The notes beneath the pieces are model-generated. The model was not told where the DNA came from. It searched no databases and saw only the letters and a program-made list of their open reading frames with translations. The position numbers and the translations under genes were made by a program. A DNA stretch of 64,000 nucleotides from Sphingomonadaceae bacterium. Its GTDB lineage: Bacteria; Pseudomonadota; Alphaproteobacteria; Sphingomonadales; Sphingomonadaceae. Where the stretch lies: assembly GCA_947463325.1 (NCBI GenBank), contig CANHQT010000001.1:1-64000 (forward strand), written 5' to 3'. Of the stretch, positions 16,185-58,633 are shown piece by piece; the first letter of the stretch is position 1; the number at the start of each line of letters is the position of its first letter.

Positions 16185-16603
16185 CCGCCAAACCGTTTCT
16201 TCAGCGCCAGCATCGCCAGCGCCGCTTCGGCCGCGCCGCCGCCCTTGTCGAGTTGGGCCGGGTCCGCCCGGCGGATGGCTTGCGCCTCATTTTCGGTGGT
16301 GAGGATGCCGTTGCCGATGGCGAGCCCGTCCATGGTCAGCGCCATGATGCCGCGCGCGCTTTCGCCTGCGACAATCTCGAAATGATAGGTTTCGCCGCGA
16401 ATGACGACGCCGATGGCGACATAGGCATCATAGCCGCCTGCCTGATCGGCGAGCGCGATGGTTCCCGGCACCTCGAGCGCGCCGGGCACAGTCACGGTCT
16501 CGTGGCTATGTCCTGCCGCCTCGATCGCGGCGCGCGCACCGGCCAGCAGCATGTCGTTCAAATGCTCGTAGAAGCGCGCCTCAACGATGAGGATATGGGC
16601 CAT
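16181..16603 (-). CDS. ribH: 6,7-dimethyl-8-ribityllumazine synthase
   Basis: RibH condenses 5-amino-6-ribitylamino-uracil with 3,4-dihydroxy-2-butanone 4-phosphate to give the lumazine precursor of riboflavin. The 140-residue protein shows the family motifs [33 protein letters not shown] and the catalytic-loop region [20 protein letters not shown], followed by [16 protein letters not shown]. Length is typical for the icosahedral or pentameric enzyme. It begins in the last base of the ribBX stop (TGATG), so translation is coupled. Confidence 0.96.
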
Positions 16604-42557: not shown

Positions 42558-44717
42558 TCAGGGCGGTCCCGGTTCCTCGCGCGCGGGAGGCGGTTCGGGC
42601 TTGCGCAGCGAGACGCCATTGCGATCAACGGTGATGCCAACACCGCCAACATCTGCATCGACCGCCACGCCATTAGCGGGATCTATCCGGACCGATGGTT
42701 CGCCGATAACGTCGCCCAGGTCGTCGAAAATCTGCGGAATGTCGGGTTCAGGTTCGGGGCGTGGTGCAGCGCGCGGAGCGGCACCGGGGATGGCGCGGGC
42801 CATGAAGTCGCGCCAGATGCGCGCTGGTGCGCCACCGCCGGTAATACCGCGAATGGGGCCATTGTCGTCGCGACCGATCCAGACGCCAACGACAAGATCA
42901 CCGGCAAAGCCGACGAACAGGCCATCGCGCCCGTCCTGAGTCGTGCCGGTCTTGCCATAGGCCGGGATGGCCAGCCGCGCCGCGCGGCCGGTACCATTGG
43001 CAACTGCAGCCTCGAGCAGTTCAAGCATGTCGCTACGCACACGCGACGGCAATGCACTGCGGCCGTCGAACAGCCGGTCAAACAGGTCTGGTTCCGGCTC
43101 CCGCAGGGCGTGGGGAATGACCGGTCCATAGTTGCCGGCAACAGCCGCATAAGCAGCGGTGAGCTCGATCAACGTGACCCCTTCACTGCCCAATGCGACG
43201 CTGGCATTGTCCGGCAACGATGTGGCGATGCCCAAGTCACGCGCTGCCTGTTCGACCGCCGCACTGCCGAGCTGGCTGTATAGTCGAACGGCAACAACAT
43301 TACTCGACTGGGCGAACGCTTCCTTGAGCGTGATCTCGCCGCGATACCGATCCCCGTAATTGCCGGGGCGATAATCGCCCTCGGTGATCGGGCTGTCATC
43401 GACAAGGCTGTCGGGACGCATCCCGCTCCGCAGCGCGGCAAGATAAACCATCAGCTTGAAGGTAGATCCCGGCTGGCGACGCGCCTGGGTTGCACGGTTG
43501 AAGGACGAGGCGCGGTAATTGCGCCCGCCAATCATCGCCACGACCTCGCCATTGGGGCGCATCGCCACCAGCGCAACCTGCGATCCCGCCGGCCCCGCGC
43601 CTTGGGTGACACGGCGGGCAATATCCTGCAACCGCGCGTCGAGCGTGGTCGTAACTCGTTCTTCGCCATAGCCCGGTTGCACCGTCGCGCGCGCCTGCGG
43701 CATGGCCCAGTCCGCAAAATAGGTGCCGGTCGGCAAGCTCGGACGGGCACGGTTGTCGATCTCGGCCGGGCGGATGCGCTCGGCCTCCTCCGCCGTCAGG
43801 AACCCTGCATCGACCATGCTCGCAATCACCACCCGCTGCCGTTCACGTGCGGCCCTCAAATTGCGTGTCGGCGCAAGGCGGGAGGGTGCCTTGACGAGGC
43901 CAGCGAGCATCGTCGCCTGCGACAAGGTCAACCGTTCAGGCTGACGGTAGAAATAATGGAGCGACGCGGCGCGCAGCCCATACACATTGTCGCCGAAATA
44001 AGCGTTGGAAAGATAGCGAGAGAGGATTTCGTCCTTGGTCAGCCACGCCTCCATCCACCAAGCGATGAGCAGTTCTCGCGCCTTGCGGCTGTATGTCTGA
44101 TCGGCATTCAGGAAGGTGAATTTGGCAAGCTGCTGGGTGATGGTGCTGCCGCCATGGCGGGTACCGCTGGTGATGTTGCTCCACAGCGCGCGGCTGATGC
44201 CAATGGGGTCTATGCCCCAATGCGAGTAGAAGCGCCGATCTTCGGTGGCGAGGAAAGCCTCGACCACATGCGGCGGCAGTTTCGTGACATCGACCGGGTC
44301 ATCGACAATCGCACCATTGCGCGCAATCGGGCGTCCGTCGGCGCTAACCAGCGTGAGCTGCGGCGGGGCGATAGGCTCGAGGCTTTTCGAGAGCGGCGCC
44401 GTCCAAGCGAGCCAAGCCACGGTCAATGTGAAAACCACTGCAAAGACAAGAAAGCCGCGCTTGGCCCAATACCAGCGACGCTGCCATTTCGATGGCGGTT
44501 CCACTGGCGGCAGCACTGGAGGGGCAATGCCGCCGGGCACAGTGGCGGAAGATGCATAGTCGGGTTGCGACCGAAGATTTGGGTCTGGTCGGTCAATGAT
44601 ACCGCGCAGCTCCGCCTCCAGTTCGGCCAGCGTCTTGCGGCGCCGTGATGAAGGCGCACCGGCGCCGCCGGTGCCGCCATAGCCGTCTGGCAGGTCGAAG
44701 GGATTGTCACTCGCCAT
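42558..44717 (-). CDS. Bifunctional class A penicillin-binding protein (PBP1A family)
   Basis: The 719-residue enzyme polymerises and cross-links peptidoglycan. After a Pro-rich cytosolic part and one membrane anchor (KRGFLVFAVVFTLTVAWLAW) comes the GT51 glycosyltransferase, with TEDRRFYSHWGIDP, GGSTITQQLAKFTF and YLSNAYFGDNVYGLRAAS. The transpeptidase domain has its nucleophile in PGSTFKLMVYLAAL (SxxK, about 417), an SSN motif in FAQSSNVVAVR and KTGTTQDGRDGLF (about 590). All catalytic motifs are intact. A TATAAT -10 box sits only about 12 bases before the start, so the message may be almost leaderless. Confidence 0.93.
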   Translation of the reverse strand: MASDNPFDLPDGYGGTGGAGAPSSRRRKTLAELEAELRGIIDRPDPNLRSQPDYASSATVPGGIAPPVLPPVEPPSKWQRRWYWAKRGFLVFAVVFTLTVAWLAWTAPLSKSLEPIAPPQLTLVSADGRPIARNGAIVDDPVDVTKLPPHVVEAFLATEDRRFYSHWGIDPIGISRALWSNITSGTRHGGSTITQQLAKFTFLNADQTYSRKARELLIAWWMEAWLTKDEILSRYLSNAYFGDNVYGLRAASLHYFYRQPERLTLSQATMLAGLVKAPSRLAPTRNLRAARERQRVVIASMVDAGFLTAEEAERIRPAEIDNRARPSLPTGTYFADWAMPQARATVQPGYGEERVTTTLDARLQDIARRVTQGAGPAGSQVALVAMRPNGEVVAMIGGRNYRASSFNRATQARRQPGSTFKLMVYLAALRSGMRPDSLVDDSPITEGDYRPGNYGDRYRGEITLKEAFAQSSNVVAVRLYSQLGSAAVEQAARDLGIATSLPDNASVALGSEGVTLIELTAAYAAVAGNYGPVIPHALREPEPDLFDRLFDGRSALPSRVRSDMLELLEAAVANGTGRAARLAIPAYGKTGTTQDGRDGLFVGFAGDLVVGVWIGRDDNGPIRGITGGGAPARIWRDFMARAIPGAAPRAAPRPEPEPDIPQIFDDLGDVIGEPSVRIDPANGVAVDADVGGVGITVDRNGVSLRKPEPPPAREEPGPP

Positions 44718-44726
44718 TGCGATACT

Positions 44727-44756
44727 GTATTATAAACCTAATACGCCAAGAGCCAA
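44727..44756 (-). promoter_or_regulatory. PBP gene promoter with overlapping palindrome
   Basis: On the minus strand, TTGGCT (44756-44751) is followed after 16 bases by a perfect TATAAT (44734-44729). The predicted transcript start is 5-6 bases before the PBP ATG. The -10 box lies inside the inverted repeat GTATTA-N6-TAATAC (44727-44744), which could be an operator. This is one of the most AT-rich short stretches of the window. Confidence 0.5.
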
Positions 44757-44835
44757 GCGCATATTGACGCGAGAGGGCCGAATGGCAACGCTCACCTGTC
44801 GCCAGGATGAAGCGGACGGGGGAAAGGACACAAAA

Positions 44836-45255
44836 TTGAGCTCAGAAATCCGCATGGATGCAGCAGCACTAAACGCTTTTCTGGCGCGCGCATTCCCAGA
44901 ACGCGGCGAAGGCATGGCACGGGTGTCAAAGGTCGAACCGGGGCGGGCTTGGCTCGCCCTTGAACCTGCCACCGCCAATTTGCGTCCCGGTGGGATCGTC
45001 TCCGGCCCGACTTTGATGGGCCTTGCCGACACCGCGGCCTATGCCGTCATCCTCGCCCATATCGGAGAGGTGCCGATGGCGGTGACCAGCAGCCTCACCT
45101 ATCATTTCCTGCGCGGCTGCGACTTTGCCACGGTCCATGCCGAAGCAAGCCTGCTCAAACTCGGCCGGCGGCTCGCGACGGTCGATGTGCGGATATGGAC
45201 CAAAGATCCCGCCCGCCCGGTCGGTCAGGCCAGCGTGGTCTATGCGCTGCCCTGA
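44836..45255 (+). CDS. PaaI/hotdog-fold thioesterase
   Basis: The protein, 139 residues from this start, has the hotdog fold of PaaI-type acyl-CoA thioesterases. The core has RPGGIVSGPTLMGLADTAAYA, where the Asp and the helix are typical, then AVTSSLTYHFLRGCDF and GRRLATVDVRIWT. TTG 44836 is preceded by GGGGGAAAGGA at good spacing and is preferred; ATG 44782 and ATG 44854 are alternatives, and the frame is open from 44704. It is divergent from the PBP gene and converges with the monooxygenase gene. The substrate is unknown. Confidence 0.82.
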   Translation: MSSEIRMDAAALNAFLARAFPERGEGMARVSKVEPGRAWLALEPATANLRPGGIVSGPTLMGLADTAAYAVILAHIGEVPMAVTSSLTYHFLRGCDFATVHAEASLLKLGRRLATVDVRIWTKDPARPVGQASVVYALP

Positions 45256-45270
45256 GGTACCAGGCTTGGC

Positions 45271-46356
45271 TTACAATTCGAGCGGGCCATGCTCCAGCTT
45301 GGGCAAAACATGGCGGGCGAACAGATCGCATTCGGCAGCGTGCGGGTAGCCTGACAGGATGAAGGCCTCCATGCCGACCTCCTGATAGGCGCGCAGCTTG
45401 GCCAGCACCTGATCGGGATCGCCGACAATGGCGGCACCGCAACCGGACCGGGCACGGCCGATACCGGTCCACAGATTGTCCTCGACATAGCCCTCATCAT
45501 CCGCGGTGCTGCGCAGCTCGGCCTGGCGCTGCACACCGAAGTTGGCGGCATCAAGGCTCTTGTTACGAATGGCATCGCCGGTTTGCGCATCAAGCTTGGA
45601 AAGCAGACGGCGGGCATAGAGGCGCGCTTCCTCTTCCGTCTCGCGCACGATCACATGGGCGCGATAGCCGAACTTGAGCGTGCGACCCTTGGCGGCGGCG
45701 CGCGCCTTCATGTCGGTGACGACCTCCTTCACCTTGTCCATCGTGTCGGGCCACATCAGATAGACATCGGCCGCCTCCGCAGCGACTTCGCGCGCCACCG
45801 GCGAAAGGCCACCGAAATAGAAAGGCGGGCATTTGCCGGAGATGGTCGTCATGCGCGGCGGATCGAGGTCGAGATTGTAGAAATCGCCCTTGAAGCTGAC
45901 GTGCTCGCCATTGAGCATGGTCTTCAAGATCTTCATCGCCTCAACCGTGCGCTGGTAACGCGGCCCGCCCTCCATCGTCTCTCCCGGGATGTCGGAAGAG
46001 ATGATGTTGACGTTGAGCCGCCCCCCGGTCCCTGCAGCGTTGGGGCCGAGGATGCGGTCGAGCGTGGCAATGCGGCGCGCAAGCTGCGGCGGCCAGTCTT
46101 CACCGATGCGCACCGCCATAAGCAGCTTCATGCGCGTCACCATCGTGGCGATGGCGGCAGCAAAGACAGTGGTATCGACGCCCAACTGATAGCCGGAGGG
46201 CAGCAGGATATTGTCGAACCCGCCCTTTTCGGCAGTCAGCACGATATTGCGGCAATGCTCCCACGATGATTGCAGCATCGGGTCAGGCACGCCCAGAAAC
46301 TCGTAATCGTCATCGCACAGCGCGGAAAACCAGGCGACTTCGCATTGCTGGGTCAT
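45271..46356 (-). CDS. SsuD-like LLM flavin-dependent monooxygenase, predicted sulfoquinovose monooxygenase
   Basis: The 361-residue TIM-barrel protein belongs to the alkanesulfonate monooxygenase (SsuD) branch of the luciferase-like family. Comparable segments are AEKGGFDNILLPSGYQLG, LLMAVRIGEDWPPQLARR, LNVNIISSDIPGE, PFYFGGLSPVAREVAAE, RAHVIVRETEEEARL and NLWTGIGRARSGCGAAIVGD. SsuD enzymes use FMNH2 and O2 to split a C-S bond, releasing sulfite and an aldehyde. In the sulfo-SMO pathway such an enzyme turns sulfoquinovose into 6-oxo-glucose. The locus, with sulfoquinovosidase and aldo/keto reductase, points to that substrate. ATG 46356 follows GAGGATG. No flavin reductase gene is adjacent, so FMNH2 must come from elsewhere. 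Confidence 0.8.
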   Translation of the reverse strand: MTQQCEVAWFSALCDDDYEFLGVPDPMLQSSWEHCRNIVLTAEKGGFDNILLPSGYQLGVDTTVFAAAIATMVTRMKLLMAVRIGEDWPPQLARRIATLDRILGPNAAGTGGRLNVNIISSDIPGETMEGGPRYQRTVEAMKILKTMLNGEHVSFKGDFYNLDLDPPRMTTISGKCPPFYFGGLSPVAREVAAEAADVYLMWPDTMDKVKEVVTDMKARAAAKGRTLKFGYRAHVIVRETEEEARLYARRLLSKLDAQTGDAIRNKSLDAANFGVQRQAELRSTADDEGYVEDNLWTGIGRARSGCGAAIVGDPDQVLAKLRAYQEVGMEAFILSGYPHAAECDLFARHVLPKLEHGPLEL

Positions 46357-46435
46357 GGCTTCATCCTCATTCACTGCCCCGAAACGTCTCAACAGGGGCA
46401 TTGGTCGTCATTGGCGATGGCCGGAACCGTTGGCA

Positions 46436-46449
46436 GCACCGGCCGGTGC
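46436..46449. promoter_or_regulatory. 14-base perfect palindrome before the monooxygenase gene
   Basis: GCACCGGCCGGTGC lies in the 103-base gap between the aldo/keto reductase stop and the monooxygenase start, about 80 bases upstream of the latter. It could be an internal operator for the LacI protein, or part of an internal terminator. There is no T-run. It is unlike the two palindromes upstream of the TonB receptor. Confidence 0.35.
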
Positions 46450-46459
46450 ATTCCTTGAT

Positions 46460-47368
46460 CTAGGGCAAGGGGATTCCGCGCGCGGCGACGAGCACGGCGT
46501 ACCACTGCGCCCGCGTCCAGCGGACGGCATAGGCATCCGCTGCTTCGGCGACACGCGCCGCATTTTGCGTGCCGACGATGGGAATAATCCCTGAAGGATG
46601 TGCCATCAGCCAACTATAGGCAGCAGCCGTGCGGCTGACGCCATGCGTTTCGGCAGCGACGTCAAGTGCGGCGGCTACGGCACGATCACGGTCACTCTCC
46701 GGCGCGGCGAGGCGCCCGCCGCCGAGCGGCGACCAGGCGAGCGGGGTCATGCCCATAACCATTGCCTGATCGAGCTCGCCATTCTCGATGCAATCGATGC
46801 GCAAGGGGCTAATCTCGGGCTGGGTAGCAACGATCGGCACGCTCCCCAGGAAATGCTGGAGCGCCGCGATCTGGGCCACGGTCATGTTGGAAACGCCGAT
46901 GCTGGCGATTTTCCCTGCAGCCACCGCGTCGGTGAGCGTGCGCGCCACCTCTTGAGGATGTGCAAGAATGTCCGGCCGGTGAATCTGATAGAGCTCGACA
47001 CGGTCGGTCTTGAGCCGGCGCAGCGAAGCATCGAGCGCGCCGGAGAGATAAGGACCGCTTTGATCATAGGGCAGCGGGGGCATGATCCCGCCCTTGGTCG
47101 CCAGCACGATGCGGCCCCGGATCGATGGGTCGGCGGCCATCACCTCGCCAAACAGCGCCTCGGCATCCCCGAACCCACTGTGGCCGTTGAAGCCATAGAT
47201 GTCCGCGGTGTCGAAAAAGGTAATGCCGCTATCAAGCACGGCGTGGACGAGGCGCGCGGTATCCTCACGGCTGCCGGCAAAGCGCCACATTCCCCATGCG
47301 AGAGAGGAGACGGTGAGGCCACTGGTCCCGAGGCTGCGGGTACGGGGGGCGGGTGCAAGATCGCTCAT
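46460..47368 (-). CDS. Aldo/keto reductase, predicted 6-oxo-glucose reductase
   Basis: The 302-residue protein has the full aldo/keto reductase tetrad: Asp and Tyr in FFDTADIYGFNG, Lys in VLATKGG and His in LYQIHRPD. The NAD(P)-binding tail is SGIIPIVGTQNAARVAEA. It is closest in style to E. coli YdhF-type reductases. In the known oxidative sulfoquinovose pathway an aldo/keto reductase (SmoB) reduces the 6-aldehyde left by desulfonation to glucose. The position between the LacI regulator (16 bases) and the SsuD-like monooxygenase supports this assignment. The substrate is inferred from context, not from sequence. Confidence 0.8.
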   Translation of the reverse strand: MSDLAPAPRTRSLGTSGLTVSSLAWGMWRFAGSREDTARLVHAVLDSGITFFDTADIYGFNGHSGFGDAEALFGEVMAADPSIRGRIVLATKGGIMPPLPYDQSGPYLSGALDASLRRLKTDRVELYQIHRPDILAHPQEVARTLTDAVAAGKIASIGVSNMTVAQIAALQHFLGSVPIVATQPEISPLRIDCIENGELDQAMVMGMTPLAWSPLGGGRLAAPESDRDRAVAAALDVAAETHGVSRTAAAYSWLMAHPSGIIPIVGTQNAARVAEAADAYAVRWTRAQWYAVLVAARGIPLP

Positions 47369-47384
47369 CGGCTATTATGTCCTG

Positions 47385-48413
47385 TCAGGCGTTGCGTTGA
47401 AAAGGCGGGGCGACACTGGCGCGTTCGACCAGCTGGTGAGGCAGGCGCCGATGCACGCTTTCCCCGCCGGCGAGCAGCAGTTGCGCGGCGGCGTCGGCGA
47501 GTTCGAACATCGGCTGGTGAATGGTGGTGAGCGGCGGCCATACGGTGCGCGCAAGCGTGGTATCGTCGAAGCCCGCAACGCTGAGCCGCCCCGGCACGTC
47601 GATGCCCATGTCATGCGCGACCGCAAGCACACCGGCGGCCATGTCGTCATTGGAGGCGAAGATGGCGGTCGGCGGTTCCGCCATGGCCAGAAACAGGCGC
47701 GCTGCCGCCACTCCACTGTCGAAATCGAACTGGCCCTGGGCGATCAGCGCCGGGTCTGCGCGCATGCCGACGCGTTCGAGCGCGCGGGTGTAGCCGCGCT
47801 GCCGGTCATCCGACGCCATGTGGCTGGGATGCCCCTTGATGAAGCCGATGCGCCGGTGCCCGAGATTGAGGAGGTGCGTTGTCATATCATCGCCGGCCTG
47901 CACGTCATCCATGAACACCGAAGAGGTCAGCGCATGGTTGGTGCCGGGGGAGATACGCACGAAGGGCACGTCCATCGCCTCCAGCGCACGCAGCACCGCA
48001 TCACAATCGGTGACGGGGGAGGAGAGGATGATGCCATCGACATGGGTTTCAGTGACAAGCCCGCGCACCTGTTCACCCACTGCCGGATCGTCGACATCGA
48101 CTGGCTGAGCGAGCAGGCGAATGCCCTCCCGGTTACAATGCGACCAGACACCCGACTGGATCTGGTGCATGTAATAGGGGCTGTGATTGTCATAGATCAG
48201 GGCGATCTGGTTCGACTTTGTGCCCGCCAGGATACGTGCGGCAACACTGGGGCGGAAATCGAGCTCGCGCATCGCCGCCTCGACCTTCGCCCGCGTCTCC
48301 TCCCGCACATAGCGGTGGCCGTTAAGCACGCGGCTGACGGTCTTGACGGCGACCCCGGCGAGCGCGGCGACATCGCGGATGTTGGCGCGTTCATTGGTGG
48401 TTTTGGCACTCAT
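47385..48413 (-). CDS. LacI-family transcriptional regulator
   Basis: The 342-residue protein has an N-terminal LacI helix-turn-helix with hinge (NIRDVAALAGVAVKTVSRVL and NGHRYVREETRAKVEAAM). A periplasmic-binding-protein-like effector domain follows, including ALIYDNHSPYYMHQI, GFIKGHPSHMASDDRQRGY, IFASNDDMAAGVLAV and LSVAGFDDTTLARTVWPPL. Its ATG overlaps the sulfoquinovosidase stop (ATGA), so it is probably cotranscribed with the enzymes it controls. The likely effector is sulfoquinovose or its glycoside. Candidate operators are the palindromes in the divergent region at 50468-50674. Confidence 0.92.
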   Translation of the reverse strand: MSAKTTNERANIRDVAALAGVAVKTVSRVLNGHRYVREETRAKVEAAMRELDFRPSVAARILAGTKSNQIALIYDNHSPYYMHQIQSGVWSHCNREGIRLLAQPVDVDDPAVGEQVRGLVTETHVDGIILSSPVTDCDAVLRALEAMDVPFVRISPGTNHALTSSVFMDDVQAGDDMTTHLLNLGHRRIGFIKGHPSHMASDDRQRGYTRALERVGMRADPALIAQGQFDFDSGVAAARLFLAMAEPPTAIFASNDDMAAGVLAVAHDMGIDVPGRLSVAGFDDTTLARTVWPPLTTIHQPMFELADAAAQLLLAGGESVHRRLPHQLVERASVAPPFQRNA

Positions 48414-50467
48414 GCCGAATCCCTCACCGACGGCAGGCTGGCAAACAGATCCGCAAAAGCGCTGTCCGGCCGGTAGAAAACCGGCGGTGTGCCAAGGGGG
48501 GCGGCAACATCATGCCAGCCCGGCACAAAATCATCGCCCGACCAGACATGGCGCCACACGGTAGAGACATCGCCCGGCAGATAGACGCGGCGAGACACTG
48601 CCCCCTCTTCGATCACGGGCGCAACCATCAGGTCCGCGCCATAGAGATACTGATCCTGGATGGTGAAGGTCTCTCGGTCGTCCGGCCAGTGCAGGAACAG
48701 CGCGCGCTGGGCGGGCAGGCCGGTGGCCGATGCCTCCTCGCACAAATGCCGAACCCATGGCGCGAGCGCGGCATGAACGCGGCTCCAGCGTACGAAACCG
48801 GCAAGCAGCTCAGAGGTGGAATCGATCTGCAGATTGTCGTCGGGCCGGTTGCCCTCATGCGTGCGCATAACCGGCGTGAAGGCACCAAGCTCATACCAGC
48901 GGAACATCAGCTCCGCCGTGCGCACATTGCCATGCAGGCTGGTGTAGCCGCCCACATCTGAATGCGAATAGGCGTTGCCGACCAGGCCCGACGACAGCGC
49001 AGCGGTGATCACCGTGCCGATACCATCGTGGCGCGAGAAATCGACCGACTGGTCGCCGGCCCAAAGCAGAGGGCAATATTGCTGCACGCCGGTGTAGCCA
49101 GCGCGCATGAAGAAGAGCGCATCGCCCGTCCGCCCCCGCGAGGCGACGGCATCGGCATTCACCTTTGCCCAATGCACCGGCCAGAGATTGTGCTGGGACA
49201 TCGGGTCACCCGCGTGCAGCCGCAAATCGACCGGCAAATATTCGCCGAAATCGGCCATCCAGCCATCGATGCCGAAATCGAGCATCTGCTTGCCGATGAT
49301 TTCCTCCGCAAACCACTCCGCCGCCGCATCGTTGGTGAAATCGACTACGCCCGCGTCGAACTCGCCGAAATCGACAGCATAGGGCTCATCGCTGTCGAGC
49401 CGCTGGGCCAGATAGCCCAGCCGCGCCGCCTCGGCATATTGAGGGCCATCGACCGCGAGATAGGGGTTCACATAGCCGAGGAACCGGATGCCGCGCGCCT
49501 TCAGCTCCGCGATCTTCGCCGGCAAGTCGGGATAGCGCGCGGCATTCCACTGCCAGTCCCAGAACAGGCGGCGGCCGAAGCTGGTCTGGCGAATGCCGCA
49601 CCAATCCTCGCACCACAGGCCGGAAACGGCAGCGCCCGCTGCGATGATCCTTTCGAGCCGTTCAAAACTGTTCGCGCCATCCTTGAGGCCGACGATCGCG
49701 CCGCCGATGGCCCAGTCGGGCAGGGGGGGCTGCGATCCCCCACCTGTCGAGAGCTGATGCACCAACCCGGCGAAGTCATCATGCGCGGCCAACCGCAACT
49801 CGGCGCGGCCGGACCAGATCGTGAGCGCGTGTCGGTCGGAAGAAGTGAAATCCAACAACGAATATTCACTGTTGAGTAGCGCCACAGCGTAACGGCGCGA
49901 TGAGAGGAAAGTCGGTTCGGGGTAGTTGGTCGTCCAATAATCGCCGCCGGCGAAGGAGCCGTCGGCACTCATCTTGTCCGTGAGCGTAGTCCCCGGCTCC
50001 CGCCCCACCCCGGGCTCGCTCGTCCACATCGGAAAGCTGCGCCCGCGCAGGTCAAAATAGCTCATCTGCTCGCCGCCGCCCCAGACGTGTTCATCGGCTT
50101 CGGCGACGAGCTCGATATTCAGGCGATCGTGACTGGCTAGCATCGAAAACAGCTCAAGCGTCGCGCCATCATCGTGAAGCGACACCCGTACCCTCAAAAT
50201 GGCCGAATCGTCGGCGTCCTCGGCGAGTAGCAGGTCGAAACATTCCCGATGGGGCGCGGCATCCTCCACCCTGTTCGGCTGGATATACCTGGGCACACGC
50301 TCATCGCTCGGCGCATCCTCCATGCGGAAATTGCCGCGTACCATGGTGACGGCCGGATTGCCCTTGGCGATGCGGAATGCAGGGGTGTCGATGCGGTGGC
50401 GCAGGATGACCCGGTCACCCAGCAGCAGGTCGAACCCGCCGTCGCGTTCCTCGAATCGCGCGCTCAC
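48410..50467 (-). CDS. GH31 sulfoquinovosidase (YihQ/SmoI-like)
   Basis: Sulfoquinovosidases release sulfoquinovose from sulfoquinovosyl glycerol and related plant and algal sulfolipid products. From GTG 50467 the protein has 685 residues (E. coli YihQ has 678), and the active-site residues then fall on almost the same numbers as in YihQ. The nucleophile is Asp406 in DGWMADFGEYLP and the acid/base is Asp472 in LLWAGDQSVDF. The sulfonate-pocket residues are Lys262 (VGLKDG), Glu287 (WCEDWCGIRQTSFG), Arg300 and Trp303 (GRRLFWDW) and Tyr508 (SHSDVGGY). This is the KERWY set of Agrobacterium-type enzymes; E. coli has Gln-Gln. GAGGGG precedes the GTG. ATG 50572 and ATG 50530 are earlier options, but they overlap the divergent promoter area. 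Confidence 0.9.
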   Translation of the reverse strand: MSARFEERDGGFDLLLGDRVILRHRIDTPAFRIAKGNPAVTMVRGNFRMEDAPSDERVPRYIQPNRVEDAAPHRECFDLLLAEDADDSAILRVRVSLHDDGATLELFSMLASHDRLNIELVAEADEHVWGGGEQMSYFDLRGRSFPMWTSEPGVGREPGTTLTDKMSADGSFAGGDYWTTNYPEPTFLSSRRYAVALLNSEYSLLDFTSSDRHALTIWSGRAELRLAAHDDFAGLVHQLSTGGGSQPPLPDWAIGGAIVGLKDGANSFERLERIIAAGAAVSGLWCEDWCGIRQTSFGRRLFWDWQWNAARYPDLPAKIAELKARGIRFLGYVNPYLAVDGPQYAEAARLGYLAQRLDSDEPYAVDFGEFDAGVVDFTNDAAAEWFAEEIIGKQMLDFGIDGWMADFGEYLPVDLRLHAGDPMSQHNLWPVHWAKVNADAVASRGRTGDALFFMRAGYTGVQQYCPLLWAGDQSVDFSRHDGIGTVITAALSSGLVGNAYSHSDVGGYTSLHGNVRTAELMFRWYELGAFTPVMRTHEGNRPDDNLQIDSTSELLAGFVRWSRVHAALAPWVRHLCEEASATGLPAQRALFLHWPDDRETFTIQDQYLYGADLMVAPVIEEGAVSRRVYLPGDVSTVWRHVWSGDDFVPGWHDVAAPLGTPPVFYRPDSAFADLFASLPSVRDSA

Positions 50468-50571
50468 GCCGCCCCTCTCCCTCACTCTCTCGCCCAAGGC
50501 CGTGCTGGCTGCGGCGGCGCTGTTGCGCATTTGCCGCACTGTGACCGCGACGCACGTCGCAGCGTATGACA

Positions 50572-50588
50572 CCGCTTGACATAAGCGG
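50572..50588. promoter_or_regulatory. Inverted repeat over a TTGACA box in the divergent control region
   Basis: CCGCTT-GACAT-AAGCGG has perfect 6-base arms and contains TTGACA (50576-50581), a consensus -35 box reading toward the TonB receptor gene. It is in the 207-base region between the sulfoquinovosidase and receptor starts. No clear -10 box follows at 17 bases. The overlap of a repeat with a promoter element suggests a repressor site, for which the neighbouring LacI protein is the obvious candidate. Confidence 0.5.
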
Positions 50589-50614
50589 ACATGCCTCGCA
50601 ACTGTTTTGCCGAT

Positions 50615-50629
50615 GCCGGTTAATCCGGC
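50615..50629. promoter_or_regulatory. Second palindrome in the divergent control region
   Basis: GCCGG-TTAAT-CCGGC has 5-base arms and lies 46 bases before the receptor ATG. GTTAAT (50619-50624) inside it could serve as a -10 box. It is a second candidate operator of the sulfoquinovose locus. Confidence 0.4.
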
Positions 50630-50635
50630 GCATGG

Positions 50636-50658
50636 CGCGCGCCTCCAACAGGCGCGCG
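50636..50658 (+). other. Leader hairpin before the TonB receptor ribosome-binding site
   Basis: CGCGCGCCT and AGGCGCGCG form a perfect 9-base-pair stem around CCAAC. It ends 4 bases before the strong ribosome-binding sequence GGGAGGA (50663-50669). A stable GC hairpin here may raise message stability or limit translation. There is no T-run, so it is not a terminator. Confidence 0.5.
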
Positions 50659-50674
50659 GATTGGGAGGACAGAC

Positions 50675-53032
50675 ATGACTCTGAACGTTTCGCGCATCGG
50701 CCGCGGGCTGCTTGCCATCGGTGCATCGAGCCTCGCGCTCGCCGTTTCGACGCCAGCCTTTGCTCAGGATGCGGCGGCAGAAGAAAACAGCAGCGGCGAC
50801 ATCATCGTTACCGCCAACCGCGTCGAGCAGAATTTGCAGGACGTGCCGATCGCGGTCAGCGCGGTTTCCGGCGACCGCCTGGTCGACACCGGCACCAACA
50901 GCCTTGAAAACATCGGCGATCTCGTCCCCTCTGTCACCTTCCGCAAAGGCACGACCAGCGCCAACAGCGCCATTGTGATGCGCGGCGTCGGCACCATCAG
51001 CTTCTCGGTCGCTGCTGAACCCAGCGTTTCAACCGTTGTCGACGGCATCGTTCTCTCGCGCTCGGGTCAGTCGTTCATCGACCTCGTCGACATCGACCGC
51101 CTCGAAGTGCTGCGCGGGCCGCAGGGCACGCTTTTCGGCAAAAATGCCTCGGCCGGTCTCGTCAACATCATCAGCCGCGGCGGCACCGATGAGTTCGAAT
51201 TCGAAGGCAATGCCGAATATTTCGAAGGCGACGAATATCGCTTCCGCGGTTCGGTCTCCGGCCCGCTCGGCGGCAATTTCTCGGGCCGTTTGACTGGCTT
51301 CTACGGCACGTATGACGGCAACATCACCAATATCAATGCTGCCGCCAACGGCAACAAGGTGAACGGTTACGAGCGCATGGGCGCCCGCGCGATCGTCGAT
51401 TATGACAGCGGCCCGACGAGCCTGCGTTTCATCGCCGACTATTTCGAAGCGGATGACGATTGCTGCGCCGAAGTGACCGGCGTTTCGCGCGGTGCCGCTA
51501 TCGATGCCATCCTCGGCATTCCGGGCGGCAATGCCAATGGTGAGAACCAGCGCATCGTCAACCACAACCTCGTTACGCGCACGCAGGACAAGCAGTATAG
51601 CTTCACCCTGTCGGGCGACTTCGAGCTGACCGACACGCACACTCTCAGCCTGGTCAGCGGTTACCGCAACTGGCAGAACACCGAACTCCGCGAAGGCGAC
51701 TTCCTGCCGTTCGCAGTGATCGGCACCGGCCAGCTGCATGACGAAGGTTTTGTCGAAACCAACCAGTACAGCTTTGAAGCACGGATCGCCTCCGACCAGT
51801 CGGCGGCCTTCTCCTATCAGGCCGGTGCATTCATCTGGTATTCGAACAACATCCAGAATTTCACGCGGCGCAACATTCAGTGCACCACGTCGACGCGTGC
51901 TGCACTGCCCGGCGGCGCCGTGCCTTGCAACATCATCGCGCCGAACACCACGACTGACGCCACCACCTTCCCGAGCGCAACCTCGGCAAGCGACGTGGAT
52001 TCGACCAACTATGCCTTGTTCGCGCAGGGCACCTATCGCTTCAGCGACATGTTTAGCCTGACCGCAGGCCTGCGCTGGACCAAGGACGAGCTGAGCTATA
52101 CCCACACCCGTGCGCCAGGCATCGACCTGCGCACCGGCCTCCCGGCCACTGGTGCGGGCGTTTCGGGCAACCCGGCCGGCGGCCTCACCACTGCCACTCC
52201 TCCGGGTAACGGCACCAACACCTCGGCCGGCGATTCGAACAACAGCAACTGGTCGGGCCGCGTTTCCGCGCAGTTCGAGCCCAATGACGACCTGATGCTC
52301 TATGCAAGCTACACCCGTGGCTACAAGGGTCCGGCGTTCAACGTCTTCTTCAACCACACTGCGCCGACCAACGCCGTGCCGATCGACGAAGAAACGTCCG
52401 ACAGCTTCGAAATCGGCGTGCGTTCGCAGTTTGCCGACTTTGTCACGCTGAACGCCACGGCATTCCAGGTGACCTATGACGGGTTCCAGGCGAACAACTT
52501 CATCCTGCTCAACGGTGCGGTTGTTTCCAACCTCACCAATGCGGGTAAGGTGCGTTCGACCGGCTTCGAAATCGACACCCGGATTGAGCCGGTTGACGGC
52601 CTGACCTTCTCGGGCAGTGTCGCTTATGCCGATGCCAAGGTCCGCCGGTTCAACCCGAACCCGGCAACCAACGCGCCGAGCGCGCTGAACGGCACCCGCC
52701 TGCCACTGGCACCGGAATGGAGCTGGAACATCGGTGCGGACTATGAGACCGCCATCGGTTCGAACCTGCGTTTCTATGCCAGCACGATCTACAGCTACAC
52801 CGACGATCAATTCTCCGATCTCGGCAACGCCGGCCCGATCGACAGCTACGGCATCTGGAACGCCAGCATCGGCGTCAGCGACGCGAACGACACTTATCGT
52901 CTGTCGCTGTTCGCCCGCAACATCGGTGACACCAGCTATGTGCTGCTCAACACCAGCGCTGGCCAGCGTCTCCACATCCCGCGTGATGCGGACCGCTACT
53001 TCGGCGTCGGCCTGCGCGTGAAGCTGCGCTAA
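50675..53032 (+). CDS. TonB-dependent outer membrane receptor, predicted sulfoquinovoside importer
   Basis: The 785-residue protein has a signal peptide ending at about AFA-Q31 and a TonB box-like DIIVTANRVEQ at about 42. A plug domain follows, with VPIAVSAVSGDRLV and RLEVLRGPQGTLFGKNASAG, then a C-terminal beta barrel ending in YFGVGLRVKLR. No N-terminal STN or carboxypeptidase-like extension is present. Receptors of this kind import sugars and other solutes in sphingomonads. Divergence from the sulfoquinovosidase gene and the transporter genes downstream suggest sulfoquinovose glycosides as substrate; specificity cannot be read from sequence. Confidence 0.9.
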   Translation: MTLNVSRIGRGLLAIGASSLALAVSTPAFAQDAAAEENSSGDIIVTANRVEQNLQDVPIAVSAVSGDRLVDTGTNSLENIGDLVPSVTFRKGTTSANSAIVMRGVGTISFSVAAEPSVSTVVDGIVLSRSGQSFIDLVDIDRLEVLRGPQGTLFGKNASAGLVNIISRGGTDEFEFEGNAEYFEGDEYRFRGSVSGPLGGNFSGRLTGFYGTYDGNITNINAAANGNKVNGYERMGARAIVDYDSGPTSLRFIADYFEADDDCCAEVTGVSRGAAIDAILGIPGGNANGENQRIVNHNLVTRTQDKQYSFTLSGDFELTDTHTLSLVSGYRNWQNTELREGDFLPFAVIGTGQLHDEGFVETNQYSFEARIASDQSAAFSYQAGAFIWYSNNIQNFTRRNIQCTTSTRAALPGGAVPCNIIAPNTTTDATTFPSATSASDVDSTNYALFAQGTYRFSDMFSLTAGLRWTKDELSYTHTRAPGIDLRTGLPATGAGVSGNPAGGLTTATPPGNGTNTSAGDSNNSNWSGRVSAQFEPNDDLMLYASYTRGYKGPAFNVFFNHTAPTNAVPIDEETSDSFEIGVRSQFADFVTLNATAFQVTYDGFQANNFILLNGAVVSNLTNAGKVRSTGFEIDTRIEPVDGLTFSGSVAYADAKVRRFNPNPATNAPSALNGTRLPLAPEWSWNIGADYETAIGSNLRFYASTIYSYTDDQFSDLGNAGPIDSYGIWNASIGVSDANDTYRLSLFARNIGDTSYVLLNTSAGQRLHIPRDADRYFGVGLRVKLR

Positions 53033-53051
53033 TCGACGTGAAGAACAACAG

Positions 53052-53092
53052 CACCGCCCCCGGTCGACCCGGCCGGGGGCGGTGTTGTGTTT
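53052..53092 (+). terminator. Intrinsic terminator after the TonB receptor gene
   Basis: CACCGCCCCCGG (53052-53063) pairs perfectly with CCGGGGGCGGTG (53073-53084) around a 9-base loop, followed by TTGTGTTT. It is 20 bases after the receptor stop and 58 bases before the MFS gene. It would end or strongly reduce transcription, so the receptor can be made in excess over the permease. Confidence 0.8.
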
Positions 53093-53149
53093 GCGGCGTA
53101 GCACTGGCAGTCGGGAGCCGAACAGAGCGGTGATCAAGGGAAAGCGGCA

Positions 53150-54403
53150 ATGACGACAATCTCGACGCGCCTGCGCTGGTCGCTGTTTGCCGTGCTCTGC
53201 CTTGCCGGCGTGTTCAACGCGATGGACCGGCCGATCATCGCAATCCTCAAACCCGACATGATGGCCGATTTCGGCTGGACGGAAAGTGACTTCGGCGATC
53301 TTGCTGCCGTCACCCAATTCTCCGCCGCCTTTGCCTTTCTGGTCACCGGCTGGCTGGTCGACAGACTTGGCGTCAACCGTTCGATGCATGTCGGCGCTGC
53401 GGCTTGGAGTTTCGCGGCCATCGCCCATGGCTGGGCAACCACTACCGTTCAGGTCGTCGCGGCTCGCGTAGGCCTGGGCGCGACCGAAGCGGTGCAAACG
53501 CCGCTCACCATCAAAACTGTTGCCTCAATCTTCGAACCTGACCGGCGCAGCTTCGCGCTTGGCATCGCCACCTTCCTCGCCAGCATCGGCACGATCGCCA
53601 TGCCGTTCGTCATTCCCGGCCTTTCCGAAGCTTTCGGCTGGCGCGGGGCTCTGGTGTTCGGCGGGATCGGCGGTCTGCTCTCTCTCGTCGCCTGGGTGAT
53701 CCTTGCGCGCGGGGTCAATTTCACAGTGGAAGCACCGACTGACGCTGCACAACGCAGCGACGTAGATCATGGCGGCTATGGCCCCATTCTGGCCAACCGC
53801 CGCACCTGGGGCATCGTGATCGCCAAGGCGCTCTCGGACATGACCTGGTGGTTCATCAACTTCTGGCTGGCCGATTATTACCGCAAAGAATTCGGCCTTT
53901 CGACGCTGGAGCTCGCCATTCCGTTGGCAATCGCTTTTGCCGGATCGGGGCTCGGCGCGCTGCTCGCCGGTTGGGGATCAAGCAAGCTGCTCGGCATGGG
54001 GTGGAGCGTTAATCGGGTTCGCAAAACGGTGATGCTGACTTCTGCACTCATCGTCCTGCCCCTTCCGCTGGTGCTGCAACTCGACAGTTTCTGGCCAGTC
54101 GCTGTGATGATGGGCGTGGTGATGGCTGGGCATCAGGGCTTCTCGCTCTCCATCTTCTCAACCATCACGGATGTAGTGCCCAACGCCAAGGTCGCTCGGG
54201 TGACGGCGTTCGGTGCCTTCATGGGCAATATGGGCGGTGTCGCGATCAGCCTCGTCGTCGGGCGCGTGCTCGATGCCGGCTTCGGCTACATGCCGATCTT
54301 CCTGTTCGCAGCCATATCCTACCTTCTCGCCTTCAGTTGGTTCCAACTCATGCTGCCGCGCATCGAGCGGAACGAAGGCGCGTTGGGCAGCGTCGCGAGC
54401 TAG
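53150..54403 (+). CDS. MFS permease of the anion:cation symporter type, predicted sulfoquinovose transporter
   Basis: The 417-residue protein has twelve hydrophobic helices and MFS features. The N-terminal part contains FNAMDRPIIAILKPDMMADF, the loop 2-3 motif is GWLVDRLGVNRSM, and GLGATEAVQTPLTIKTV lies in helix 4. This is the style of the ACS family, whose members carry organic anions such as hexuronates, which fits an anionic sugar like sulfoquinovose. It lies between the receptor and the exporter gene, which starts 7 bases after its stop. The substrate is inferred from context. Confidence 0.83.
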   Translation: MTTISTRLRWSLFAVLCLAGVFNAMDRPIIAILKPDMMADFGWTESDFGDLAAVTQFSAAFAFLVTGWLVDRLGVNRSMHVGAAAWSFAAIAHGWATTTVQVVAARVGLGATEAVQTPLTIKTVASIFEPDRRSFALGIATFLASIGTIAMPFVIPGLSEAFGWRGALVFGGIGGLLSLVAWVILARGVNFTVEAPTDAAQRSDVDHGGYGPILANRRTWGIVIAKALSDMTWWFINFWLADYYRKEFGLSTLELAIPLAIAFAGSGLGALLAGWGSSKLLGMGWSVNRVRKTVMLTSALIVLPLPLVLQLDSFWPVAVMMGVVMAGHQGFSLSIFSTITDVVPNAKVARVTAFGAFMGNMGGVAISLVVGRVLDAGFGYMPIFLFAAISYLLAFSWFQLMLPRIERNEGALGSVAS

Positions 54404-54410
54404 TCCAGCT

Positions 54411-55487
54411 ATGGCATCGCCCTACGAAGACCCACGCGATCGCTATGCCGGTGATCTGTTCGGCGAAATGGCGCTGGCAGAAACGACTACCGCACCACGC
54501 CCTGCGGCACCACTGTTCCCCGGCCTTGCCATCTGCGCCATCGCCAGCATCGCTGCAGCCTGGCTTTCCGAACATTATGGCATGCCCATCATCCTGATGG
54601 GACTATTGCTGGGGCTCGCGCTCAACTTCATCGCTGCCGATCCGCGCACCCACCGCGGGCTCGATTTTGCGAGCCGCACCTTCCTGCGCATCGGCATCGT
54701 CATCCTCGGCACACAGGTCACTTTTGCGCAGATTGGCATGCTCGGCCTGCTGCCATTCGTGGCGCTGCTGGCAGTGATGGCCTCGGCCTTTGCTGGCGGC
54801 CTCCTCGGTGCGCGGATGGCGGGACAAAGTCGTGAATCGGGCTTGCTTTCGGGCGGGGCTACAGCCATCTGTGGGGCATCGGCCGCGCTCGCGCTTTATG
54901 GCGTCATTGGCAAGGACCGGCTCAGCCAGGCGCAGTTTGCGCTCTCGCTGGTCGGCATCGCTCTCGCCTCCGCGCTCGCCATGTCCTTCTATCCCCTGCT
55001 GGCCGACGCGCTGGCCTTAAACGACCGGCAAGCAGGCTTCCTGATCGGCGCATCGATCCATGACGTGGCTCAGGCAATTGGCGGCGGCTATGCCTATTCA
55101 GACGCGGCAGGCAGCTATGCCACCATCGTCAAGCTGGCACGGGTCGCGATGCTTGCGCCGCTCGTCGCCCTTGTCAGCCTCTTATTCCTGCGCGGCAGCG
55201 GTGGCGGAGAGGCCCAGCCAATCTGGCGGCGACTGGCGTTACCCTGGTTCATCACCGCCTTTCTCGCGGTCGTCATTCTGAACAGCCTGATCAGCGTGCC
55301 GCCGGTGCTGACGGAAAGCGCTCTCACGGTATCCAAAACGCTTTTGTTACTCGCCGTAACCGCAACCGCGATGCGCAGCCGCATGGACCTCATCATGCAG
55401 ATGGGGTGGCGCGCTCTGATGCCGGTACTGGGAGCAACGATAGCGAGCCTCGTCGTCGCGCTGCTGTTCGCGCTGTTCGTCATCTAG
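54411..55487 (+). CDS. Putative sulfate exporter family (YeiH/UPF0324) membrane protein
   Basis: The 358-residue protein has about ten hydrophobic helices and the family signature LLSGGATAICGASAALALYG. LIGASIHDVAQAIGGGYAYSD and LRIGIVILGTQVTFAQIG are also typical of the YeiH/Cons_hypoth698 family. Members are annotated as putative sulfate exporters and recur beside sulfonate-degradation genes, where sulfite must leave the cell. ATG 54411 is 7 bases after the MFS stop; the open frame upstream of it lies inside the MFS gene in another frame. In this locus it would dispose of sulfite or sulfate from desulfonation. Direct transport evidence for the family is limited. Confidence 0.8.
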   Translation: MASPYEDPRDRYAGDLFGEMALAETTTAPRPAAPLFPGLAICAIASIAAAWLSEHYGMPIILMGLLLGLALNFIAADPRTHRGLDFASRTFLRIGIVILGTQVTFAQIGMLGLLPFVALLAVMASAFAGGLLGARMAGQSRESGLLSGGATAICGASAALALYGVIGKDRLSQAQFALSLVGIALASALAMSFYPLLADALALNDRQAGFLIGASIHDVAQAIGGGYAYSDAAGSYATIVKLARVAMLAPLVALVSLLFLRGSGGGEAQPIWRRLALPWFITAFLAVVILNSLISVPPVLTESALTVSKTLLLLAVTATAMRSRMDLIMQMGWRALMPVLGATIASLVVALLFALFVI

Positions 55488-55525: not shown

Positions 55526-58500
55526 ATGCCTTCCGGCATGACTCACCCGCCCCGCAATGCCATCCGCGCGCTCCATCGTCAGAGCGAGGCGGCGATTACC
55601 ACATCCAACCTCGCCGCACTCGCAGCCACCGGCCCCGATGTCGCAACGATCAAGGTGCTGGGTCGCAAGGTCATCGCCCGCGCCAAGGCGGATGGGGAAC
55701 GGGACACGCTGGTCGGCGCGCTGATGAACAAATACCGGCTGTCGACCGAAGAGGGCGTGGTGCTGATGTGCCTCGCCGAAGCGTTACTGCGTGTGCCCGA
55801 CAGCGATACCGCCAACGCCCTCATCCGCGACAAGATCGCCGGGCGGCACTGGGCCGAAACCGAAGGCGATTCCGGTAGCTTCCTCGTCGAGCTTTCCGCC
55901 TTCGGCCTCAGTCTGGGATCGGCAACACTGCTGCTCGACCAAATCGGCAGCCGTTCCACTCCGGCGAGCATCCTGAGGCGCATGGTCCGGAAATCGGGCG
56001 AGCCGGTGATCCGGCAGGCGGCCTATGCCGCGATGAAGCTGCTCGGCCAGCAATTCGTGATGGGCGAAACGATCGAGGCCGCGATCCGCCGGGCCAATCG
56101 CGACGGGGGCGAACTCGCGTCCTTCGACATGCTGGGGGAAGCCGCACGAACCGCCGAGGATGCGGAACGCTATGCCCGCGCCTATGCCGAGGCCATCGCC
56201 GCCCTGGGTAAGGGTGCGAAACCGGGTGATCCGCACGCCAACCACGGCATCTCCATCAAGCTCAGCGCGCTTCACCCGCGCTACGAATATCTGCAGCCGC
56301 GTCGCCGGGCGGAGGAACTGCTGCCTGTGGTCATCACCCTCGCCCGCGCAGCGCGCGAGGCCAATGTTCCGCTGATGATCGATGCGGAGGAGAGCGACCG
56401 GCTCGAACCCCATCTCGATGTGTTCGCCGGCCTCATTGACGCAGGGGTTGCGGACGGTTGGCCCGGCCTCGGCATCGTTGTCCAAGCCTATCAGAAACGC
56501 GCCGCCGCGGTCATCGAATGGGTTGGCACTCTTGCTCGCGCACGCGGCGTGCAAGTCGCACTGCGGCTGGTGAAGGGCGCTTACTGGGACAGCGAGATCA
56601 AGCGCGCGCAGGTGATGGGCCTCACCGACTTTCCGGTGTTCACCGAAAAGAACCGGACCGACATCAACTATATGCGCTGTGCCCAACTGCTCCATGGGCT
56701 TGCTGACTGCATCTACCCTGCCTTTGCCACGCACAATGCGATGACCATCGCCTATATCGCTGCGCTGTTCGGCCGCGAAACCGACCATGAACTGCAGCGG
56801 CTCCACGGCATGGGCGAAGGCGCGCATGATGCACTGGCCGACATTGCCCCCCCGATGCGGCCTGTCCGGGTTTATGCCCCGGTCGGCACACACCGTGATC
56901 TCCTCGCCTATCTTGTCCGACGCCTGCTGGAAAATGGCGCTAACTCGAGCTTCGTCCACCAGTTCGCCGATCCCGACGTGACGGTGGAGGAACTAGCGGT
57001 CGACCCGCGCGAACCCGCCGCGCAAACGGCCCTGCCGCCGCTGCCGACAGGCGAGACGCTGTACCTGCCCGAACGGCGCAACAGCCGCGGCCATGATCTG
57101 GGTGACCCAGGCGTTCCCGAAGCGTTGCTCTCTTCCATGGCGGAAGCGCGGAAGTCGTCTGGCGCGGCCGTGCCGCTGGTCGCCGGCAAGGCGCTTGGCG
57201 GGACCTCCGCAGCAGTCATCAATCCGGCCACCGGCGCAGTCGTCGGCAGTGTGACAGACGCACAGCTCGATGCCGTGGCCGCTGCCATTGCTGCGAGCCA
57301 TGCCGCCCAGCCCGACTGGAGCCTGGCCGGCGGCGATTTCCGGGCGGACCGATTGGAGCGTGCTGCGGACATGCTCGAGGCTGAGGAAGCCCGTTTCCTC
57401 GCACTGGCAATGGATGAAGCCGGCAAGACTCTCGCCGACGCGGTCGCAGAGGTGCGCGAGGCAGTCGATTTCCTGCGCTATTATGCGCGCGAGGCCCGCT
57501 CCCATTTCAGCCGCCCCGTAGCGTTGCCCGGGCCGACCGGGGAGCGCAACGAACTCTGCCTTGAGGGCAAGGGCCTGTTCGTCGCGATCAGCCCCTGGAA
57601 TTTCCCGCTGGCGATCTTCCTCGGGCAGGTCGGTGCCGCTCTCGTTGCGGGCAACGCCGTCATCGCCAAGCCCGCCGAACAGACACCATTGATCGCCGCC
57701 GCGGCAGTCGACCTGCTCCACCGTGCTGGGGTACCACCCGAGGTCCTGCACCTCCTCCCCGGAGCGGGCGAGAGCATCGGCGCGGCGCTGGTCGCCGATC
57801 CCCGCATCGACGGCGTTGTCTTCACTGGATCGACGGAGGTTGCCCGGATCATCAACCGCACCCTTGCCGCGCGCGACGGACCCATCGCCACGCTGATTGC
57901 CGAAACCGGCGGGATCAACGCGATGATCGTCGATTCGACTGCGCTCCCCGAACAGGTCGCACGCGACGCTGTCGCCTCCGCTTTCCAGAGCGCAGGTCAG
58001 CGCTGTTCGGCGCTTCGGCTCCTCCTCGTCCAAAGCGACGTCGCGGAAAATATGGTGGCGATGATCGCGGGCGCGATGGCCGAACTTCAGGTCGGCGACC
58101 CTGCCGACCCCGCCACCGATGTCGGCCCGATCATCGATGCCCAAGCCCGTTCAGCTATCGCAGCCTATGTCGCGGAGGCACGCGCCGCCGGCCGTGTTCT
58201 GGCAGAGGCAACGCGGTTTGATGGCAGTGCCGGCCATTTCGTCATGCCGGCGCTGATCCGCCTCGATTCCCCCAACGACCTAAAGCGCGAGATATTCGGC
58301 CCCGTGCTCCATGTCGCCACTTGGGAGGAAGGTGGGATCGATGCGCTGATCGATGCCATCAACGCCTCGGGCTATGGCCTGACGCTCGGCGTCCACAGCC
58401 GGATCGATGCGGTCGCAGCGCATGTCGCGGCGCGGGCACGGGTCGGCAACATCTATGTCAACCGCAACCAGATCGGCGCGGTAGTCGGGGTTCAGCCCTT

Positions 58501-58633
58501 TGGCGGGCGCGGCCTGTCCGGCACCGGCCCCAAGGCCGGCGGGCCGCATTATCTGATGCGCTTTGCCGACGAGAAGACCATCTCTACCGACATTACCGCC
58601 GCCGGGGGCAATGCTGCGCTGATGGCGCGATAG
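55526..58633 (+). CDS. putA: Bifunctional proline dehydrogenase / L-glutamate gamma-semialdehyde dehydrogenase
   Basis: PutA oxidises proline to glutamate in two steps, giving electrons to quinone and NAD. The 1035-residue protein has a short helical arm and then a FAD-binding proline dehydrogenase barrel. The barrel shows MIDAEESDRLEPHLDVF, GIVVQAYQKRA, LRLVKGAYWDSEIKRAQ and FATHNAMTIAYI. The aldehyde dehydrogenase follows, with AISPWNFPLAIFLGQ, VFTGSTEVARII, the Glu in IAETGGINAMIV and the catalytic Cys in SAGQRCSALRLLLV. The N-terminal ribbon-helix-helix DNA-binding domain of long PutA proteins is absent, so regulation must come from another protein. ATG 55526 and ATG 55538 are both possible starts. 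Confidence 0.96.
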   Translation: MPSGMTHPPRNAIRALHRQSEAAITTSNLAALAATGPDVATIKVLGRKVIARAKADGERDTLVGALMNKYRLSTEEGVVLMCLAEALLRVPDSDTANALIRDKIAGRHWAETEGDSGSFLVELSAFGLSLGSATLLLDQIGSRSTPASILRRMVRKSGEPVIRQAAYAAMKLLGQQFVMGETIEAAIRRANRDGGELASFDMLGEAARTAEDAERYARAYAEAIAALGKGAKPGDPHANHGISIKLSALHPRYEYLQPRRRAEELLPVVITLARAAREANVPLMIDAEESDRLEPHLDVFAGLIDAGVADGWPGLGIVVQAYQKRAAAVIEWVGTLARARGVQVALRLVKGAYWDSEIKRAQVMGLTDFPVFTEKNRTDINYMRCAQLLHGLADCIYPAFATHNAMTIAYIAALFGRETDHELQRLHGMGEGAHDALADIAPPMRPVRVYAPVGTHRDLLAYLVRRLLENGANSSFVHQFADPDVTVEELAVDPREPAAQTALPPLPTGETLYLPERRNSRGHDLGDPGVPEALLSSMAEARKSSGAAVPLVAGKALGGTSAAVINPATGAVVGSVTDAQLDAVAAAIAASHAAQPDWSLAGGDFRADRLERAADMLEAEEARFLALAMDEAGKTLADAVAEVREAVDFLRYYAREARSHFSRPVALPGPTGERNELCLEGKGLFVAISPWNFPLAIFLGQVGAALVAGNAVIAKPAEQTPLIAAAAVDLLHRAGVPPEVLHLLPGAGESIGAALVADPRIDGVVFTGSTEVARIINRTLAARDGPIATLIAETGGINAMIVDSTALPEQVARDAVASAFQSAGQRCSALRLLLVQSDVAENMVAMIAGAMAELQVGDPADPATDVGPIIDAQARSAIAAYVAEARAAGRVLAEATRFDGSAGHFVMPALIRLDSPNDLKREIFGPVLHVATWEEGGIDALIDAINASGYGLTLGVHSRIDAVAAHVAARARVGNIYVNRNQIGAVVGVQPFGGRGLSGTGPKAGGPHYLMRFADEKTISTDITAAGGNAALMAR

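Follow-up and report, generated by a model that had tools for sequence, protein, structure and literature searches.

Sulfoquinovose (SQ), a sugar that contains sulfur, comes from the membranes of plants and algae, and its production is put at ~10 billion tons a year in the literature passages covered. In this study, we analyzed a seven-gene locus in a 64,000-nucleotide stretch of DNA from a Sphingomonadaceae bacterium (contig CANHQT010000001.1; hereafter, the window), and on its sequence we consider it to be a sulfo-SMO (sulfo-ASMO) locus of sphingomonad type, with a probability of about 0.9. Several lines of evidence lead to this reading: the matches of the enzymes to solved structures in the PDB, the tree of the monooxygenase, the residues of the GH31 enzyme, and a gene set conserved in the sampled Sphingomonadales; a conserved site, TGTCAAGCGGTGTCA, with copies before MFS, YeiH and glpD genes, as well as the proximity of glpD and glpK in related loci; and the glucokinase and glpD found elsewhere in the genome, together with the same SsuE-less pathway in Novosphingobium aromaticivorans.

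Gene sets of this kind are common in bacteria. The literature already covers the pathway, its occurrence in sphingomonads and the absence of a flavin reductase, and the pathway is not new here. The new elements are a probable common control site and the uptake genes linked to it. We think it fairly probable that a LacI-controlled regulon for sulfoquinovosyl glycerol, marked by TGTCAAGCGGTGTCA, is common to sphingomonads, and that in it a fixed core of GH31, LacI, aldo/keto reductase and SmoC has recruited a TonB-dependent receptor, interchangeable MFS permeases, YeiH and glycerol-phosphate genes, with the TonB/MFS route replacing an ABC importer.

Enzymes of the locus

An earlier note on this DNA had placed seven genes here and proposed sulfo-SMO chemistry for them. 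All seven were recovered in place as open frames on the expected strands and with the expected domains, and the chemistry gains support from sequence in that the best solved structure for each enzyme is the expected one. The top matches of the GH31 enzyme are 5ohy and 5ohs (379/659 residues identical to 5ohy), which carry the entry name 'Alpha-glucosidase yihQ' and which we take to be the Agrobacterium sulfoquinovosidase. The NCBIfam model NF007746 (PRK10426, named alpha-glucosidase and presumably the YihQ model) matches with 848.6 bits, well over its cut-off of 553. The sulfoquinovosidase active site that the note had ascribed to this protein is intact: D441 and D507, which we take to be the catalytic pair, and R335, W338 and Y543, presumably the sulfonate contacts, are conserved throughout the 15 rows compared, one of which is 5ohy. 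A sixth position, expected to be Q262, reads T even in 5ohy and was set aside. On inspection by eye the sequence shows no clear signal peptide, and we therefore take the enzyme to be cytoplasmic.

The monooxygenase is identical to 7olf at 177/344 positions, to 7oh2 at 175/343, to 7jv3 at 125/341 and to 1nqk at 118/338, and the phmmer scores follow the same order (355, 351 and 204 bits, and 188 bits for SsuD). The entry names are 'Methanesulfonate sulfonatase' for 7olf and 'Alkanesulfonate monooxygenase' for 7oh2 and 7jv3; we take 7olf and 7oh2 to be SmoC and 7jv3 to be MsuD. In a tree of 23 rows, 7jv3 and 1nqk are split from the other 21 with a support of 100/100, and the position of the window's row inside that group of 21 carries no resolved support. 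The phylogeny that the note had called for thus places the protein with 7olf and 7oh2, and together with the bit scores it makes the grouping apart from SsuD and MsuD a firm one at the level of sequence. The source genome contains no second match to this protein at E values up to 0.001.

The aldo/keto reductase is closest to 7bbz and 7bby (159.5 and 158.6 bits, with the next family at 131.8), which bear the entry name 'Aryl-alcohol dehydrogenase' and which we take to be SmoB. A profile built from nine homologues widens the margin over the next family from 28 to 44 bits (229.7 vs. 185.7), so that sequence and profile agree on a SmoB/SquF-type reductase. Residues D53, Y58, K92 and H130, presumably the catalytic tetrad that the note had called intact, are invariant across the nine homologues.

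Conserved neighborhoods and the operator-like site

A search at E values up to 1e-80 recovers the monooxygenase from 77 of the 298 genomes sampled in the family and from 31 of the 196 sampled in the order, the source genome being counted in both samples. The trait is patchy, since among the six other same-genus genomes listed it is present in one (G122) and not in G042, G181, G224, G261 or G293. Among named genomes, 151 relatives could be confirmed, of which 80 were kept as loci; neighbors were sought over up to 10 kb on the upstream side and up to 5 kb on the downstream side and counted in the 63 loci that have nearly 10 kb upstream of the monooxygenase, the other 17 being left out. The gene set is conserved over the Sphingomonadales sampled: the reductase is present in 63 loci, LacI in 62 and GH31, upstream and on the same strand, in 62, and a TonB receptor lies on the window-equivalent strand in all 63 (at ≥50% identity in 42). 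An MFS permease of ≥60% identity occupies the window's strand in 26 loci, and a weaker-matching one the opposite strand in 33. Given the limited range, the counts for YeiH (at least 49/63), glpD (at least 44/63) and glpK (at least 11/63) are lower bounds; the proximity of glpD and glpK fits a release of glycerol. By these counts, the regulator and receptor are conserved with the enzymes, and the MFS permease and YeiH mostly so. Plasmids also carry the monooxygenase (29 records at E values up to 1e-60, among them 6 of Novosphingobium and 7 of Rhizobium), and on pLA3 of N. pentaromativorans the receptor, GH31, LacI, reductase, monooxygenase, glycerol-3-phosphate dehydrogenase and glycerol kinase genes follow one another. 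On one contig of a metagenome-assembled genome (L057, 1-10242), the set of LacI, reductase and monooxygenase appears twice, the copies facing each other, which is perhaps an assembly artefact.

The 15-mer TGTCAAGCGGTGTCA is found exactly in 60 of 70 gaps between GH31 and receptor genes, those of the window and of one plasmid included; it has one mismatch in four others (64/70 at one mismatch or fewer), three in two, and four or more in four. Three poor-scoring gaps (L047, L067 and L086) have the exact site just beyond the excised stretch. The gap rows are related, yet the letters around the site vary while its core barely changes, and none of 1400 letter-shuffled gaps contained it at up to two mismatches. 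The site was spotted by eye in these gaps and then counted in the same gaps, and these figures are therefore descriptive and not an independent test. Copies outside these gaps and the counts for control patterns come nearer to such a test. Over 84 loci (80 from genomes and 4 from plasmids; 1,555,239 bases), 87 sites occur at up to two mismatches; the reversed pattern yields 4, and five shuffled patterns yield between 1 and 7. The main gap accounts for 66 of the 87 (63 plus L047, L067 and L086), and 18 are weaker copies upstream of an MFS, YeiH or glpD (glycerol-phosphate dehydrogenase) gene; one (L082) follows an MFS gene and has nothing recognised as a gene on the opposite side, and two are elsewhere (L105, inside GH31, and L118). 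This distribution suggests a single LacI regulon that takes in the transport genes and has sulfoquinovosyl glycerol as its substrate. As a bioinformatic marker for this putative regulon, TGTCAAGCGGTGTCA points to candidate transporters.

The site is only half palindromic, and its link to LacI accordingly draws on position and conservation. Perfect six-base inverted repeats in the gaps were also considered as the operator and rejected, the best being shared by 5/70 gaps, and co-variation of LacI with the site gave no consistent pattern: sites with three mismatches accompany a LacI of 66-67% identity (L083 and L094) and one with four mismatches a LacI of 70% (L073), yet L101 and L105, also at 70%, keep a site that is exact or has one mismatch, respectively. 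The window holds one copy at up to two mismatches, which is also the only exact copy in the source genome; four further matches in that genome at two mismatches stand against five for the reversed pattern, and we therefore claim no wider regulon in this genome.

Proposed pathway and its alternatives

In the pathway that we propose, an SQ glycoside, most likely sulfoquinovosyl glycerol, would cross the outer membrane via the TonB receptor and the inner membrane via the MFS permease. The cytoplasmic GH31 enzyme would split sulfoquinovosyl glycerol into SQ and glycerol, the monooxygenase, with FMNH2 from a flavin reductase encoded elsewhere, would cut the C-S bond to give 6-dehydroglucose and sulfite, and the aldo/keto reductase would convert 6-dehydroglucose to glucose for glucokinase; these three enzymatic steps have support from the comparisons above. 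YeiH may export surplus sulfite or sulfate. From a single site in the gap, LacI may repress the two divergent units until an SQ compound releases it. The source genome (2.29 Mb, 57 contigs, 99.99% complete) contains a glucokinase and, on another contig, glpD; a sulfite oxidase (PF00174) was sought in it and not found. The locus encodes no flavin reductase. For the flavin reductase family PF01613, the genome has a single match (C17:11642-12784, minus strand; L116:1489-2637), on another contig; this protein is fused to an N-terminal alpha/beta-hydrolase and is a candidate source of FMNH2. When 35 other genomes of the same genus were searched, 33 had full-length relatives of the fusion, and among 24 genomes of other genera those with a match show it in the reductase part only. 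PF03358 gave one weak match (33 bits, contig C8).

Could the monooxygenase be an ordinary SsuD/MsuD enzyme that scavenges sulfur from alkanesulfonates beside an unrelated alpha-glucosidase locus? Its top NCBIfam match is indeed TIGR03565 (SsuD), though its 249.2 bits fall short of the cut-off of 518.2, and W206, R236, H238, Y341 and H343, which we take to be active-site positions (7olf numbering), are all present but do not discriminate, since SsuD and MsuD have them too (one row of the 23, L121, lacks the last). The 100/100 split from 7jv3 and 1nqk and a GH31 homologue upstream on the same strand in 62/63 loci render this explanation highly improbable. It is also very unlikely that the specificity of GH31 and the monooxygenase has shifted and the locus serves another sulfosugar or a complex sulfonated glycoside; such a shift would agree with the two receptor types, the two MFS types and the other gene contexts of the monooxygenase, whereas the presumed sulfonate contacts are intact in every GH31 row compared and the linkage to glpD fits a glycerol glycoside.

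Some observations weigh against the sulfo-SMO reading. Neither glpD nor glpK is present in the 64-kb window, and the window has no second copy of TGTCAAGCGGTGTCA, the best second sites having 6 mismatches before the MFS gene and 5 before YeiH. Receptor and MFS types differ between loci, and their substrate is therefore not readable from homology. Moreover, monooxygenases of 70-71% identity adjoin other gene sets in Rhizobium sp. WSM4643 and Sphingobium yanoikuyae, so the monooxygenase alone does not fix the substrate. On the WSM4643 plasmid (L119, 1-12059; 70% identity), no aldo/keto reductase is annotated in the stretch, and the neighbors are an ABC importer and a dehydratase/aldolase/lactonase/GH31 set resembling sulfo-ED. 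On pKN1 of S. yanoikuyae (L120, 3914-18075; 71% identity), the monooxygenase keeps company with a reductase, sulfatase, dioxygenase, MFS permease and TonB receptor, and no GH31 is annotated within 11 kb of it; this set possibly acts on another sulfonated substrate.

Sharma et al. in 2022 reportedly described the Agrobacterium sulfo-SMO locus, with SmoI, SmoC, SmoB, SmoA and an ABC importer, and Liu et al. in 2021 are said to have described the SquD/SquF sulfo-ASMO locus of N. aromaticivorans DSM 12444. The window resembles the former in its GH31 and monooxygenase (see 5ohy and 7olf above, chains that presumably derive from sulfo-SMO bacteria, Agrobacterium/Rhizobium) and differs in having a TonB receptor and an MFS permease for the ABC importer, no clustered flavin reductase, and a YeiH exporter. 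Ruegeria sp. THAF33, of the Roseobacter type of sulfo-SMO, shares a 52% identical monooxygenase with an adjoining aldo/keto reductase (only 36% identical to that of the window) but has a local flavin reductase and a TRAP transporter, and no GH31 is annotated across 19 kb; according to the passages covered, GH188 takes the place of GH31 in Roseobacter clusters (PMC10755693). According to the parts covered of two accounts, which agree on the sulfo-ASMO pathway of N. aromaticivorans (PMC9594981; PMC12890257), SsuE is missing from the cluster and other flavin reductases are presumed to serve (PMC9594981). The earlier note was thus right that the locus lacks a flavin reductase but not in offering this as a departure. 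Strain DSM 12444, compared by description only, is likewise a sphingomonad with an SQ monooxygenase, an aldo/keto reductase and a cluster without SsuE; the passages covered give no description of its genes for transport and regulation, and the species appears neither among the 29 plasmid records nor in the titles of the 80 loci retained from the 151. Novosphingobium was among the chief SQ users in freshwater incubations with 13C-SQ, and sulfo-SMO was predicted for labelled genomes near this genus (PMC13372026, in the passages covered). In the papers on SQ that were surveyed, titles and abstract openings hold no account of a TonB/MFS route or of this operator; Liu 2021 and Sharma 2022 may show such neighbors.

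Gene layout and calls

Features of the locus, with positions in the window
Feature	Positions	Strand	Basis or remark
SmoC/SquD-type FMNH2-dependent sulfoquinovose monooxygenase, P0001 (predicted)	45271..46356	-	frame open to 46401
SmoB/SquF-type aldo/keto reductase, P0002; predicted 6-dehydroglucose reductase	46460..47368	-	PDB and profile matches
LacI-family regulator, P0003	47385..48413	-	LacI + Peripla_BP_3
GH31 sulfoquinovosidase, P0004 (predicted)	48410..50467	-	NF007746; frame open to 50572, start inferred
Operator-like site TGTCAAGCGGTGTCA, putative LacI site	50567..50581	-	divergent gap, conservation
TonB-dependent receptor, P0005; predicted outer-membrane importer	50675..53032	+	plug + barrel Pfam
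MFS permease, P0006; predicted inner-membrane importer	53150..54403	+	MFS_1
YeiH/PF03601 putative sulfite/sulfate exporter, P0007	54411..55487	+	PF03601; start inferred

Transcription on the minus strand would run from GH31 through LacI and the reductase to the monooxygenase, and on the plus strand, divergently, from the receptor through the MFS permease to YeiH. The Pfam domains beyond those tabulated are Bac_luciferase, Aldo_ket_red and three GH31 domains, of which the N-terminal one scores under its cut-off. The monooxygenase most likely starts at 46356, and for GH31 the GTG at 50467 is the more likely start: position 50572 falls inside TGTCAAGCGGTGTCA, and the alignment with 5ohy sets in only at residue 39. 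The labels given to the transport genes stood in part: MFS_1 and PF03601 (Cons_hypoth698; 186.9 bits, cut-off 24.5) pass, but 'ACS-type' and 'sulfate exporter' are loose, since TIGR00893 (D-galactonate transporter; 115.1 bits, cut-off 395) and, for YeiH, TIGR00698 (117 bits, cut-off 232.6) match below their cut-offs. A G+C-rich inverted repeat at about 53045-53090, terminator-like by eye, lies between the receptor and MFS genes; the receptor promoter may serve the MFS and YeiH genes as well, although this repeat intervenes. On one side of the locus lies a thioesterase-like gene (44704-45255), on the other a proline dehydrogenase/aldehyde dehydrogenase (55526-58633). Elsewhere in the window (16603-17883, minus strand), a RibBA-like protein has, by eye, an apparent N-terminal helix-turn-helix-like extension of ~60 residues.

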